Positions 3,044 through 24,968 of a stretch of 64,000 nucleotides of DNA are shown here, piece after piece (within the stretch, counting starts at the first letter, position 1; each line of letters opens with the position of its first letter). The notes under the pieces are model-generated. The model was not told the origin of the DNA. It saw only the letters and a list, made by a program, of their open reading frames with translations, and did no database searches. This DNA comes from a virus. The translations under genes were made by a program, and so were the position numbers. The stretch is taken from positions 1-64,000 of the IMG/VR virus record IMGVR_UViG_3300020057_000035. One strand, given 5' to 3'.

Positions 3044-3184
3044 CTAGGATGTGCTTGCCGGGCACATATATTCGTGATAATCTTGTCCACAATCGGGGCA
3101 CGATTCGTCGAATTGTGCGGCGCAATCGTCGCAAAGCAGGGTAGGGGTCAGGGTGTTACATTCAAGGCAGAATCCGAATTCCAT
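3044..3184 (-). CDS. zinc-ribbon-like protein, copy B
   Basis: 46 residues with three Cys pairs (CLEC, CDDC, CPDC) plus a late Cys. The start follows GGAAGTGAGAAACGC. Promoter at 3208-3236. Identical to the next copy. Confidence 0.65.
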   Translation of the reverse strand: MEFGFCLECNTLTPTLLCDDCAAQFDESCPDCGQDYHEYMCPASTS

Positions 3185-3249
3185 TGCGTTTCTCACTTCC
3201 TGATGTAATCTTAGCACGTCGGGGGATTTGTGTCAACTCCCGCTCAATT

Positions 3250-3390
3250 CTAGGATGTGCTTGCCGGGCACATATATTCGTGATAATCTTGTCCACAATC
3301 GGGGCACGATTCGTCGAATTGTGCGGCGCAATCGTCGCAAAGCAGGGTAGGGGTCAGGGTGTTACATTCAAGGCAGAATCCGAATTCCAT
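3250..3390 (-). CDS. zinc-ribbon-like protein, copy C
   Basis: Exact tandem duplicate of the 3044-3184 gene with its own promoter at 3414-3442. Downstream of that promoter's -35 lies a GGGGA...TCCCC hairpin (3443-3463). Confidence 0.65.
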   Translation of the reverse strand: MEFGFCLECNTLTPTLLCDDCAAQFDESCPDCGQDYHEYMCPASTS

Positions 3391-3485
3391 TGCGTTTCTC
3401 ACTTCCTGATGTAATCTTAGCACGTCGGGGGATTTGTGTCAAGGGGAGTCGTCGAACATCCCCTCAGCACACTATGTGATTTGTG

Positions 3486-3683: not shown

Positions 3684-3773
3684 GTGGTTCTCCTTCACTT
3701 CCTGATGTAATCTTAGCACGTCGGGGGATTTGTGTCAACTCGATGATTTGCCTACCACACTTTGGGATTTGTG

Positions 3774-4103
3774 TCAAGCGCCACTCTCGCTTGACCAATA
3801 TATAGCACGGGAGTCGATTTGTGTCAACTCCCGCTTTAGTGCCGACGCTATTTCGTACCAGTCTACCACGCGAAGCGCGCTTAGTAGTAGATCCGAATAG
3901 ATCCCACTAGAAAGGTGTGGCATACTTTCATAATGGTGTTGTTCTAGCCTGGAGGTCAGATCGTATACGCTATCGCACATTCGCGCAGTCTCTGACCAAT
4001 ACTCCTGGCTACCCCGGTCGTTGTCGATCCATAGTTTCGCCGCCCAAGTTTCGTAGTTTGTCCACCCATTGTACTTGTTGGCATTCGGGGATTCGGGGGT
4101 CAT
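3774..4103 (-). CDS. DUF7249-like phage protein
   Basis: 109 residues containing the YNGWTNYETWAAKLWIDND block that I associate with DUF7249-type phage proteins. Paralog at 27717-28001. The last 18 residues are encoded by the following promoter sequence, so the natural C terminus has probably been extended. Promoter at 4133-4161. Function unknown. Confidence 0.7.
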   Translation of the reverse strand: MTPESPNANKYNGWTNYETWAAKLWIDNDRGSQEYWSETARMCDSVYDLTSRLEQHHYESMPHLSSGIYSDLLLSALRVVDWYEIASALKRELTQIDSRAIYWSSESGA

Positions 4104-4157
4104 TTGGGTCACGTCCTTCACTTGCTGATGTAATCTTAGCACGTCGGGGGATTTGTG

Positions 4158-4232
4158 TCAAGCGGCGGGCTGGCAATCGTTGCAGCCTGTGTCCTTGAAT
4201 AAACCGTAATAGAACAGCACCGCTTGACTTCT
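4158..4232 (-). ncRNA. candidate structured small RNA R1, copy a
   Basis: The promoter (4235-4263, TTGACA / TACATT) is followed by the leader GTAGAAGTCAAGCGG with no ribosome-binding site. GTCAAGCGG (4220-4228) pairs perfectly with CCGCTTGAC (4158-4166). Inside is a GGCTG...CAGCC hairpin. A GTG-started 20-codon frame exists, but its start is lost in copy c, which argues for RNA. Confidence 0.5.
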
Positions 4233-4234
4233 AC

Positions 4235-4263
4235 AATGTAGCACGTCGGGGGATTTGTGTCAA
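4235..4263 (-). promoter_or_regulatory. promoter of R1 copy a
   Basis: -35 TTGACA 4258-4263, -10 TACATT 4235-4240, 17-bp spacer. Confidence 0.75.
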
Positions 4264-4460
4264 CTACCCTTGTGGTCGATGTCCCATGTTTTCGCAGCAT
4301 CCCGCAAATCCCGTGTGGTAAGCAATCCAGCCGCTACCATTTCCAATGCCGCAGCCATCGCCCAATGTCGAGCATCATCAGGATTATCCCGATTATCGAA
4401 TGCCAGATTTACGTTTCGCATCGTATGCGTGTGCTCGATAGGACGGTTAAGAACAAGCAT
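4260..4460 (-). CDS. hypothetical 66-residue protein, copy 1
   Basis: Begins MLVLNRPIEHTH. Predicted mostly helical, unknown family. The ATG at 4460 follows AATTGAGGGAAACAAA. Promoter at 4489-4517 (TTGACA / TATGAT). The gene is repeated identically at 12853-13053, so it was copied about 8.6 kb away. Confidence 0.7.
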   Translation of the reverse strand: MLVLNRPIEHTHTMRNVNLAFDNRDNPDDARHWAMAAALEMVAAGLLTTRDLRDAAKTWDIDHKGS

Positions 4461-4517
4461 TTTGTTTCCCTCAATTCCTTCTGATGCTATCATAGCATCG
4501 GGGGCGATTTGTGTCAA

Positions 4518-4547
4518 CTACCCTACCCTTGTCCAAGACCAGGGCAT
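4518..4547 (-). CDS. nine-residue minigene MPWSWTRVG, copy 1
   Basis: ATG at 4547 after AAGGACGTGACCC. The TAG touches the next -35. The same peptide recurs at 13109-13138. Here the -35 of its promoter is damaged (TTTTCA instead of TTGACA, near 4598-4603), though -10 TAAGAT 4575-4580 is intact. Confidence 0.35.
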   Translation of the reverse strand: MPWSWTRVG

Positions 4548-4651
4548 GGGTCACGTCCTTCACTTGCTGATGTAATCTTAGCACGTCGGGGGATTTGTGA
4601 AAATTGCTTTTCTCACTTCCTGATGTAATCTTAGCACGTCGGGGGATTTGT

Positions 4652-4727
4652 GTCAAGCGGCGGGCTGGCAATCGTTGCAGCCTGTGTCCTTGAATAAACC
4701 GTAATAGAACAGCACCGCTTGACTTCT
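4652..4727 (-). ncRNA. candidate structured small RNA R1, copy b
   Basis: Near-identical to copy a. Arms CCGCTTGAC 4652-4660 and GTCAAGCGG 4715-4723 (read leftward). Promoter at 4730-4758. Confidence 0.5.
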
Positions 4728-4780
4728 ACAATGTAGCACGTCGGGGGATTTGTGTCAAGCGCCGCTCTCGCTTGACATTA

Positions 4781-4966
4781 TTAGATACGAATCAATGCAT
4801 CCTGAGCGTAGTCCACGGCTTCATCAGACGTGGTAAACGTGCGGCTGAAGTAAAGATCCTCTCCCTTGAACGTGTCGGCCTGATAGATTCCATCAGGCCG
4901 TAGGTGAACGTTGACCGAGTAACCAGCGTCGTATTCGATAGTCATGTTCGTGAGTGTTCGTTTCAT
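4781..4966 (-). CDS. hypothetical 61-residue protein
   Basis: Begins MKRTLTNMTIEYDAGY. The C-terminal DEAVDYAQDALIRI looks like a small alpha/beta phage protein. Its first 11 codons and leader are reused in the chimera at 20827-20994. Promoter at 4987-5015. Confidence 0.65.
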   Translation of the reverse strand: MKRTLTNMTIEYDAGYSVNVHLRPDGIYQADTFKGEDLYFSRTFTTSDEAVDYAQDALIRI

Positions 4967-5015
4967 GTCTTTCACTTCCTGATGTAATCTTAGCACGTCG
5001 GGGGATTTGTGTCAA

Positions 5016-5040
5016 GCGCCGCTCTCGCTTGACATAATGC
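5016..5040 (-). terminator. intergenic hairpin overlapping a promoter
   Basis: GTCAAGCG-AGAGCGG-CGCTTGAC forms an 8-bp stem with a 7-base loop. Its 3' arm contains the -35 (CTTGAC) of the promoter at 4987-5015. No U-run follows. Similar hairpins occur at about 1945-1970, 2455-2480, 4753-4775, 5656-5680, 5984-6010 and 20800-20822. Confidence 0.5.
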
Positions 5041-5222
5041 TACCCGTGAAGAAGCGAATACTTTCGCAATCTTTCGCGAGATTCTTCCAATCGCTCGGAG
5101 GCGAGTTTCGCGCGAAATTCCGCAGCAAACAAGTCACGGCGAGCATCTTCGTCACGCTCTTCGTGAATTTTAATCTCTGCGCGTAGTTCACGCTCGCCAT
5201 TTTGTTCTGATACCGATTGCAT
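5040..5222 (-). CDS. hypothetical charged helical protein, short form
   Basis: 60 residues starting MQSVSEQNGERE, very rich in Arg/Glu and probably a coiled coil. The sister copy at 6014-6241 has a 15-residue insertion after HEER. Promoter at 5252-5280. Confidence 0.65.
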   Translation of the reverse strand: MQSVSEQNGERELRAEIKIHEERDEDARRDLFAAEFRAKLASERLEESRERLRKYSLLHG

Positions 5223-5314
5223 TTCTTGTCTCCCTCTCACTTCCTGATGTAATCTTAGCACGTCGGGGGATTTGTGTCAAATCATCGATTTGACTACCAC
5301 ACTTTGGGATTTGG

Positions 5315-5455
5315 GTCAAGGAAGGTCTGACTTCTATTTATACCAGACTGTACCGGCGTCGTCCCGCCACTCATTCCCTAACCCCAACGCTACTAAGCGG
5401 ATCGGGACTGTGTTAGTTCTGTGGCGATGTCCGTTGTAGCTTCCTTAACTTCTAC
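5315..5455 (-). ncRNA. candidate structured small RNA R2
   Basis: The promoter (TTGACA 5479-5484, -10 TATATT 5456-5461) leads into GTAGAAGTTAAGGAAG. GTTAAGGAAG (5440-5449) pairs with CTTCCTTGAC (5315-5324), with a G-U where R1 has G-C. A GTCTG...CAGAC hairpin lies near the 3' end. No ribosome-binding site or good frame was seen. Confidence 0.45.
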
Positions 5456-5564
5456 AATATAGCACGTCGGGGAATTTGTGTCAACTCCCGTTCTGTGCTG
5501 CCAAAATTGCTTTTCTCACTTCCTGATGTAATCTTAGCACGTCGGGGGATTTGTGTCAAGCGGC

Positions 5565-5630
5565 GGGCTGGCAATCGTTGCAGCCTGTGTCCTTGAATAA
5601 ACCGTAATAGAACAGCGCCGCTTGACTTCT
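5565..5630 (-). ncRNA. candidate structured small RNA R1, copy c
   Basis: Same as R1 a/b with CCGCTTGAC 5565-5573 and GTCAAGCGG 5618-5626. A base change turns the GTG of the 20-codon frame to GCG while keeping the RNA helix. Promoter at 5633-5661. Confidence 0.5.
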
Positions 5631-5685
5631 ACAATGTAGCACGTCGGGGGATTTGTGTCAAGCGCCGCTCTCGCTTGACATAATG

Positions 5686-12039: not shown

Positions 12040-12170
12040 GTCAAGGTGGGTAGTTCGACGTTGCATTCTTGGCAGCCCGACCTTCATGAGCCTATTTCAG
12101 CCTGATATGGTCGCCGAACATCCCCGGTCAAACCCGTGGTCTAACTTCACGTAGCCACAACTTGACTTCT
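12040..12170 (-). ncRNA. candidate structured RNA R3, copy a
   Basis: Promoter 12173-12201 (TTGACC / TATATT) and leader GTAGAAGTCAAG. GTCAAG (12161-12166) can pair with CTTGAC (12040-12045). Internal helices are GTGG...CCAC and GTTCGGCG...CGTCGAAC. The second helix covaries with the related element at 19680-19966 (GTTCAGCG...CGCTGAAC). Confidence 0.5.
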
Positions 12171-19587: not shown

Positions 19588-19679
19588 TTATTTTATCCTT
19601 TCAAGAATTTTCCATCTTTGTTTCCTCGATTGCTTGATGTACCTATAGTATCATCGCTCTTGATTTGTGTCAAGTAAGT

Positions 19680-19966
19680 AGTTCAGCGTTGCACTATCGG
19701 CGGATGTATCTTCCTCATCCCGATTAAGCCTGTGTAGTGATCGCTGAACATCCTAAGTACTACCACTACATGATAACCGTCAGTAGCCAAAGGCATAGAT
19801 CCCCTACCTCTTCAATGAGCCGATAGGGGTAACTACCTTCTATGAAGGCGCACGGTTGTTTTACCCGTGCCTCATCCTGCGCCTACAGGGCAGACTTCTG
19901 TCGTCAAAAATACAGGTACCGGGATTCTTTACGAATTAGGAACCCATACGCATTTTTGACTTCTTA
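19680..19966 (-). ncRNA. candidate long structured RNA R3, copy b
   Basis: Promoter 19967-19995 (TTGACA / TAGTAT). Near-perfect helices: GTCAAAAAT...ATTTTTGAC, GCACGG...CCGTGC, CCCCTA...TAGGGG and GTTCAGCG...CGCTGAAC. About 285 nt without a credible gene. The 3' third matches R3a in sequence and structure. Confidence 0.55.
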
Positions 19967-19999: not shown

Positions 20000-20272
20000 G
20001 AATAATTGTTATTTAACCATAATAACTAAGGTGTCTTTGTGTTCTTGCACTTTGCTTTAACTTTAGTGCGTCTTGATGTTTTAATTGCCCTCTTATTAAC
20101 CGCATGAGGGCTAAGCGTTGCCGTCTATTTCGTGCTGTCACTCTACTCGTTGCCCGCAAGGTAGATGCCGGTTTGATGTCGCAACGGTCTGGGCTTTGGT
20201 ACTCACCAGACTGTATTTCGATACCCGCTGTTGCAACAGATAGGGTTTGAATAGCGTTGCTTCAACTCATTA
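20000..20272 (-). ncRNA. candidate structured RNA R5a
   Basis: Promoter 20273-20301 (TTGACA / TATTCT). Hairpins GCCCTC...GAGGGC, GCACT...AGTGC and a CAGTCTGG...CCAGAC-type stem. No credible frame. Part of its 5' end recurs at 24750-24800. Confidence 0.45.
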
Positions 20273-20301
20273 AGAATAGCACACTGGCTAATTTGTGTCA
20301 A

Positions 20302-20420
20302 GTGGTCTGACTCACAAACCAGACTGTACGATTATTTATCACCAATCAACCTACACACGGGTTGCGTAGGCCACTCCCACTTCGTCAGTGAACGCGGTTT
20401 CGATAGCACTTGACTTCTTA
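20302..20420 (-). ncRNA. candidate structured RNA R5b
   Basis: Promoter 20421-20449 (TTGACA / TATACT), leader AAGAAGTCAAGTG. GTCAAGTG pairs with CACTTGAC, which is also the -35 region of the R5a promoter. A GTCTG...CAGAC hairpin lies near the end. Confidence 0.45.
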
Positions 20421-20476
20421 AGTATACCTTAAATAGGTATTTGTGTCAACTTCCTCATGGAATTGCCACACAGAAA

Positions 20477-20994: not shown

Positions 20995-21103
20995 GTCTTT
21001 CACTTCCTGATGTAATCTTAGCACGTCGGGGGATTTGTGTCAAGGGCGATCTGACTTGTCGATACCAGATAGTACGTATACTACTTCGTAGCGTCCCTGA
21101 CTG

Positions 21104-24601: not shown

Positions 24602-24776
24602 CCTTTTCTCCTTTGATATCTCTAGTATATCAGTTTAGATGATTTGTGTCAAGCTCAAAGATGATGTACACCTATGTCATTTAATTCTTTCTGGTGTATA
24701 TTGTGTTTGCTTCTTAAAGTCTTTCGCCCAACCTTTGTCTCTCAACGTAGCGTTGCTTCAACTCAAGAATAGCACA

Positions 24777-24968
24777 CTAGCTAATCTGTGTCAAGTGGTC
24801 TGACTCACAATCCATTGACATGGAGGATACCATTCGGTGCATTGAGAACAGCCCTTCGGCCATGGCGATGTGGACGTCGATCTCCGCCTTTGTGAGACCT
24901 GCATCCTCCAAGATTAACCGTTCGTCGATGGGAATGGTTAGAGTTCCTGAACTCTGCCATTCCTTCAA
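24777..24968 (-). CDS. hypothetical protein or displaced C-terminal fragment
   Basis: The frame reads TIPIDERLILEDAGLTKAEIDVHIAMAEGLF, which looks like genuine protein. It overlaps the next entry in another frame, so a frameshift may separate them. TTG start at 24968. Confidence 0.4.
   Translation of the reverse strand: MKEWQSSGTLTIPIDERLILEDAGLTKAEIDVHIAMAEGLFSMHRMVSSMSMDCESDHLTQIS

Follow-up and report, generated by a model that had tools for sequence, protein, structure and literature searches.

The minus-strand units R1, R2, R5, and R6, together with the 3′-UTR copy R7, are probably genes of small, stable noncoding phage RNAs belonging to an undescribed family, as judged from the sequence. 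The predicted fold is a three-way junction of the form P1–GC–P2(UA...UA)–CA–P3(GUCUGGU/GUCAGAC)–C–P1′, with different helices in R1. In R1, R2, R5, R6, and R7, the closing helix P1 lies flush with the GC on its 5′ side and the C on its 3′ side and is free in sequence but paired. In the consensus, P2 opens with a U-A and an A-U pair and contains between a few and ~100 nt; P3 is nearly fixed, with 7 bp including two adjacent G·U pairs—exact in R2 and R6 and compensated in R5, R7, and R1—and carries a GNRA-type loop in several members. R1 (three copies) and R2 had been proposed in the earlier note as promoter-driven units, which is confirmed, all of them on the minus strand, and more such units occur at 12.2 kb and at 20.0–20.45 kb. 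The window, that is, the whole 64-kb stretch of DNA analyzed here, comprises positions 1 to 64,000 of a virus record of 111,848 bp (G000) and contains the following members of the family:

4235–4263, minus strand, promoter of R1a, TTGACA-N17-TACATT, predicted +1 at 4228
4157–4228, minus strand, R1a RNA, 72 nt, P1 GUCAAGCGGU/GCCGCUUGAC
4652–4723, minus strand, R1b RNA, 72 nt, same sequence as R1a, promoter at 4730–4758
5555–5626, minus strand, R1c RNA, 72 nt, U10C, promoter at 5633–5661
5315–5449, minus strand, R2 RNA, 135 nt, P1 GUUAAGGAA/UUCCUUGAC, promoter at 5456–5484
20177–20266, minus strand, R5 RNA domain, P1 GCAAC/GUUGC, GCUA...UACA, and P3, promoter at 20273–20301
20297–20414, minus strand, R6 RNA, 118 nt, P1 GUCAAGU/ACUUGAC, own promoter at 20421–20449
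21039–21101, minus strand, R7, same fold, no promoter of its own, directly after a stop codon

The left ~33 kb of the window consists of an array of small minus-strand units with one promoter each, of the approximate form TTGACACAAATC-N9-TGC-TAAGAT. R1a–c and R2 are each preceded by TTGACA-N17-TACATT or TTGACA-N17-TATATT, and the extended pattern TTGACA-N17-TAnnnT-nTAGAAGT occurs 14 times at ≤3 mismatches, compared with 1.4 expected occurrences and a maximum of four in shuffled sequence. The G+C content changes sharply from 43 to 49% at positions 1–33000 to 31 to 34% across 33000–111848, and the same promoter type persists beyond this change to about 35.7 kb. Copies of GTTTCACGTGAAAC, the central motif of the classical parS site to which ParB binds, lie within the promoter-array region at 250–330, 6345, 14656, and 22095. 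Elsewhere, the record carries a SufB-like iron–sulfur assembly gene (G000 78492–80981, corresponding to L014:14492–16981, minus strand), which is ~60% identical to versions from Staphylococcus and Listeria phage records and features an interrupting stretch resembling an intein; similar interruptions by inteins seem to occur in the reading frames of the ribonucleotide reductase and the terminase. No relative of this genome was found among annotated phages by DNA comparison, searches with a small neighboring gene and with the gene of the polymerase gave none either, and the exact promoter patterns gave only unrelated matches in viral contigs.

The predicted +1, taken at standard spacing as the seventh base after the −10, is the G of GTCAAG or GTTAAG in all eight R units and opens the closing helix P1 in R1, R2, and R6. 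In the 12 mRNA units checked, the predicted +1 is an A, and these units begin at or near a Shine–Dalgarno-like stretch such as AGGAAGTGA. The common start (G)TAGAAGT(C/T)AAG described previously is thereby divided: GTCAAG/GTTAAG begins the R units, but GTAGAA occupies −6 to −1 of the promoter and lies outside the RNA, since the predicted +1 falls on the following G. The R units have no ribosome-binding site, which bears out the earlier statement for R1 and R2. An intrinsic terminator, that is, a G+C-rich hairpin with a U run, was not found at the ends of the units; the bases after P1′ are instead ACAAATC or CCAAATC, which belong to the next promoter.

In R1a, P1′ includes the TTGAC of the following −35 (4156–4161), and the closing helix GUCAAGCGGU/GCCGCUUGAC has 10 bp, or 11 if the junction G and C pair as well. 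The closing helix of R2 has 9 bp, with one G-U pair among them, and terminates with the TTGAC of the following −35. The arms of R1 (GUCAAGCGGU/GCCGCUUGAC) and R2 (GUUAAGGAA/UUCCUUGAC) thus differ in sequence with pairing kept, including the one G-U, as had been noted. When the closing helices were compared with shuffled upstream sequence, R1 alone stood out, being reached by 0 to 4 of 200 shuffles, because the first ~6 pairs are already given by the common GTCAAG and TTGAC. In addition, short hairpins mostly at the ends of mRNAs have a −35 in the same position:

3772–3795, minus strand, short hairpin GTCA[AC]GCG..CG[CT]TTGAC with a −35 as its 3′ arm, one of nine
1345, 1968, 2476, 4776, 5033, 5679, 6007, and 20823, starts of the other eight short −35 hairpins

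A closing helix with the next −35, previously proposed as a property of R1 and R2, is present in both but is not specific to this class, as the nine short hairpins have it too; with TTGAC fixed, such a helix by itself is weak evidence. Beyond its fixed part, the evidence lies in the variable parts of the arms and in the relatives. The overlap with the −35 is compact packing and not a defining feature, because P1 is free in sequence and abuts the following promoter. The second class of transcription unit suggested before, yielding structured RNAs of ~70 to 140 nt, is well supported as a prediction, but its hallmark is the three-way junction rather than the helix with the −35.

R1 is a divergent member of the family. 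It features different helices from the other members around an identical junction: J12 GC, P2 UGUUCU/AGGACA, J23 CA, P3 GGCUG/CAGCC, and J31 C in R1a. The adjacent G·U pairs of P3 are missing, with compensating changes. R1c differs from R1a and R1b by the single base U10C, which replaces a U·G pair in the closing helix by C-G and, at the same time, changes a possible GTG start to GCG—in agreement with the earlier observation that this copy loses its possible start codon and keeps its fold. Against a covariance model built without sequences of the window, R1 reaches a marginal 19.4 bits with filters off and with every pair intact, which corresponds to E = 2e-5 over 121 bases and to about 0.02 at genome scale. 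A scan for the structure alone across both strands of the left 33.5 kb returned only R1a–c and R2, compared with one match in 12 minus-strand shuffles.

The remaining members share more of their sequence. R2 contains GCUA, a long P2, UACA, and the P3 GUCUGGU/GUCAGAC, and has the hairpin ACAGUCUGGU...GUCAGACC immediately 5′ of the closing-helix 3′ arm in common with R6. R6 has the R2-type fold, and its 3′ end falls inside the −35 of the R5 promoter. R5 and R7 carry altered forms of this hairpin with pairing kept; in R7, P3 is compensatorily changed to AUCUG/CAGAU, and P1′ GCCCUUGAC extends into the next −35. A short basic ORF lies downstream of the R5 RNA domain, so R5 may be the 5′ leader of a small ORF. 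With R5 possibly a leader and R7 a 3′-UTR element, not every copy would be a free RNA. Three further minus-strand loci of the array belong with these units:

12040–12166, minus strand, R3, same promoter type, start with GUCAAG, and a 3′ domain with homology to its R4 counterpart
19669–19960, minus strand, R4, promoter of this type again, a hairpin GUCAAAAAU/AUUUUUGAC at the 5′ end, and a body with strong folding
24740–24840, minus strand, degenerate copy spanning the 3′ end of R6, the promoter of R5, and the 5′ start of R5, GAGTCAGACCACTTGACACAGATTAGC...GTTGAAGCAACGCTA

The degenerate copy suggests that R units get duplicated and lost. R3 and R4 are similar units in promoter and start but have a different fold and stand outside the three-way-junction family; with filters off, the family covariance model did not recover them (R3 ≤7.5 bits, R4 ≤4.1 bits). 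Their folded 3′ domain (12040–12130 in R3 and 19669–19760 in R4) shows paired changes, for example, GUUCAGCG/CGCUGAAC versus GUUCGGCG/CGUCGAAC, and may represent another RNA family of the phage. The sole match to a pattern of this domain (L026) reads as coding-type sequence rich in G+C and was attributed to chance.

Relatives in other viruses were found with a search pattern derived from the R2/R6 hairpin, written as DNA ACAGTCTGGTN{4,20}GTCAGACC. This pattern matched 25 viral contigs in IMG/VR, some of the matches being coding. In 16 of the 25, the hairpin is accompanied by GCUA, UAC, and a flush P1 of 3 to 12 bp, all of which lie outside the pattern, a combination that sets these contigs apart from the remaining matches. 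The anatomy common to these contigs is P1, GCUA, a variable stretch, and UACAG..., with P1′ directly after GACC. The conservation of P3 and J23 in the viral relatives is partly set by the pattern, so the independent evidence consists of P1, the GC, and the UA...UA closing pairs. Two loci with the hairpin (L029 and L052) were rejected, as the full junction is missing or the model score is weak. A further candidate (L022), with a promoter and AGAAGTCAAG and a GTCAAGG hairpin, seemed related, but its record holds no family member, and the resemblance was attributed to chance; this locus (3181–3420) lies in a phage tRNA region and contains, besides the promoter and the GTCAAGG/CCTTGAC hairpin, repeated strongly folded units (CCAAGGAAAATCCAG...) with no Rfam match. 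In the GTDB genomes (257 Gb of cellular sequence), the strict hairpin matched twice, with one true member in a Saprospiraceae bin; a covariance-model search of 150 genomes of the order of this bin did not recover even the known positive. BLAST of the isolated hairpins and eight members against 50,697 phage records gave nothing convincing, and one match across the hairpin was rejected because it lies inside coding sequence.

Covariation was assessed in an alignment of 19 sequences (A1), which includes some close relatives. For the covariation counts and the models, the P2 interiors were excised in most rows, because a full-length MAFFT alignment broke down over the variable P2. In this alignment, 92% of the cells pair, compared with 27 to 38% when the partner is slid; each of the nine P1 pairs has substitutions in both strands, and the observed score was reached by none of 500 shuffles. 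The covariation persists in the 14 sequences from other viruses, with the window excluded. A covariance model free of window sequences, run over the 112-kb genome, returned as its top four hits R6 (1.6e-7), R2 and R7 (8e-6), and R5 (1e-4). R5 and R7 are the freer test in this hold-out, as the virus-finding pattern had been derived from R2 and R6. The check by covariance model that the earlier note had called for is hence positive, both in the covariation of P1 and in the recovery of R2, R5, R6, and R7.

The relatives occur in various contexts. Several lie directly after ORFs or between tRNAs. One record (G004) has two copies within a tRNA array, between tRNA-Ile and tRNA-Thr, and also two Pistol ribozymes; another copy lies a few nucleotides upstream of tRNA-Leu (G011), and a further one upstream of tRNA-Asn and a manA RNA (G008). 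In four loci (L034, L039, L040, and L051), a conserved stretch TTGAACCGGTGAAACAAT...GCGTTGACTA.GG.AAGCAA is found immediately upstream of the junction motif and could be another undescribed RNA. The phage G013 (105 kb) carries 31 promoters on a single strand and an Lsr2-like gene beside its family copy. A dedicated promoter, TTGACA-N17-TAAGTT, precedes this copy, and at the other end the P1′ GGGCAAC borders directly on the TTGACA of the promoter that follows, although whether it overlaps or only touches this −35 depends on the exact start and is uncertain. G013, with a one-strand early promoter array of the actinobacteriophage type, likewise features many TTGACA-N17-TAnnnT promoters, one of which drives the same RNA, but its spacer and −10 sequences differ from those of the window, and no relationship between the two phages is known. 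The arrangement of the unit in the window is thus repeated in another phage.

Besides tRNAs, only a small number of small-RNA families are known from phages. Rfam 15 gave no credible match, by gathering threshold and E-value, over the members in the window or nine viral loci, and the literature searched contained no description of such a three-way-junction RNA. Y RNAs (YrlA) are small RNAs that are also known from phages. Like YrlA (RF02553), the members of the family are small RNAs whose two ends pair in a closing helix. In bacteria, Y RNAs act with Rsr/Ro60, and YrlA carries a tRNA-like domain (PMC7790460). The RF02553 model does not match across the family members, and an Rsr/TROVE protein is absent from G000 and present among the nine records only in G013, where the Rsr gene and a weak YrlA-like match near it lie about 30 kb from the three-way-junction RNA. 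An identity with YrlA or TROVE-associated Y RNAs was therefore rejected, given the lack of both a model match and a TROVE gene in G000. The phage Rsr/TROVE gene of G013 (L088, 37934–39676) has weak YrlA-like matches and several tRNAs nearby. The manA RNA (RF01745) and the Pistol ribozyme (RF02679) are likewise structured RNAs of phage tRNA regions and occur in the same contigs as members, but they differ from the family in sequence and fold, and neither model matches the members. With tRNAs, the family shares the short length, the end-to-end helix, and a hairpin beside the 3′ strand, and members are co-located with tRNAs in three contigs; however, the members have no cloverleaf, and neither ARAGORN nor Rfam calls a tRNA at them. 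The three-way-junction RNAs are hence most likely a new family of structured small phage RNAs, a classification based on sequence comparison.

In the proposed mechanism, each of the units R1, R2, R5, and R6 would be transcribed from its sigma-70-type promoter, and the RNA would end at P1′, where the following promoter starts. P1 would have evolved to pair with the fixed TTGAC: since P1 is free in sequence, a gene that extends into the following promoter can recruit TTGAC for the 3′ side of the helix, which would account for the GUCAAG starts. The 5′ end, buried in a helix, would give a long-lived RNA, and in tRNA arrays, processing of the adjacent tRNAs would free it. A cis-acting processing, stability, or regulatory element of phage transcripts—a 3′-UTR stabilizer, a leader element, or a spacer between tRNAs—whose promoter-driven copies are by-products of modular shuffling is an unlikely alternative to such RNA genes. 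R7 after a stop codon, R5 before a small ORF, the several relatives after ORFs or between tRNAs, and the simpler −35-overlapping hairpins at mRNA ends would fit such an element, but R1a–c, R2, R6, and the G013 copy fill entire units from +1 to the next promoter, and these stand-alone units leave nothing to act on in cis. The same property makes a new self-cleaving nucleolytic ribozyme in phage RNA arrays improbable: its compact junction (GC, CA, C) with fixed unpaired bases, the P3 with adjacent G·U pairs, the free P1, and the neighboring Pistol ribozymes and tRNAs are in keeping with such an activity, but self-cleavage has no obvious use in units that contain the motif only, as there is nothing else to cleave.

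That the units are terminators or debris of the promoter array, as inverted repeats that lie between tandem early promoters and lack any RNA function, appears very improbable; although the region is rich in duplicated promoters and in short hairpins containing a −35, the same junction occurs with unrelated P1 sequences in phages without such promoters, no U tract lies downstream, and the covariation is strong. Small protein genes are the least credible explanation. A frame of 20 codons is open in R1a and R1b from GTG to the TGA of the closing helix, but open frames of this length are common by chance, the frame lacks a ribosome-binding site, its start is lost in R1c while the helix improves, and R2, R5, and R6 have the fold but not the R1 frame in common.

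For the small noncoding RNAs of this family, a mode of action can be suggested tentatively. The junction and P3 might bind a host component that different bacteria share, titrating or redirecting it during infection, with P2 varying between copies. That the junction and P3 stay fixed in phages with different hosts suggests one conserved partner, and the context of tRNA arrays leads to the guess of a target linked to translation or tRNA. That the family forms a class of trans-acting RNAs, binding one conserved host machine via the junction and P3 in phages of very different hosts, is a possibility that we consider less likely than not; docking on a host component, most likely of translation or tRNA metabolism, is a slightly more doubtful guess. 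The hosts implied are those of actinobacteriophage-like records, of contigs also found in a Bacteroidota bin, and of the phage of the window.

The family, which occurs in unrelated phages and is absent from Rfam, combines a sharply defined junction with a closing helix that covaries freely. In two phages, the RNA makes up a whole predicted transcription unit from +1 to the next promoter, and its exact predicted ends make it a small, testable object. The layout of these genes is compact, with the 3′ strand of the RNA doubling as the next −35. If the trans-acting role holds, the family would represent a general RNA-based factor of host takeover or tRNA protection, supplied in several copies from strong promoters.
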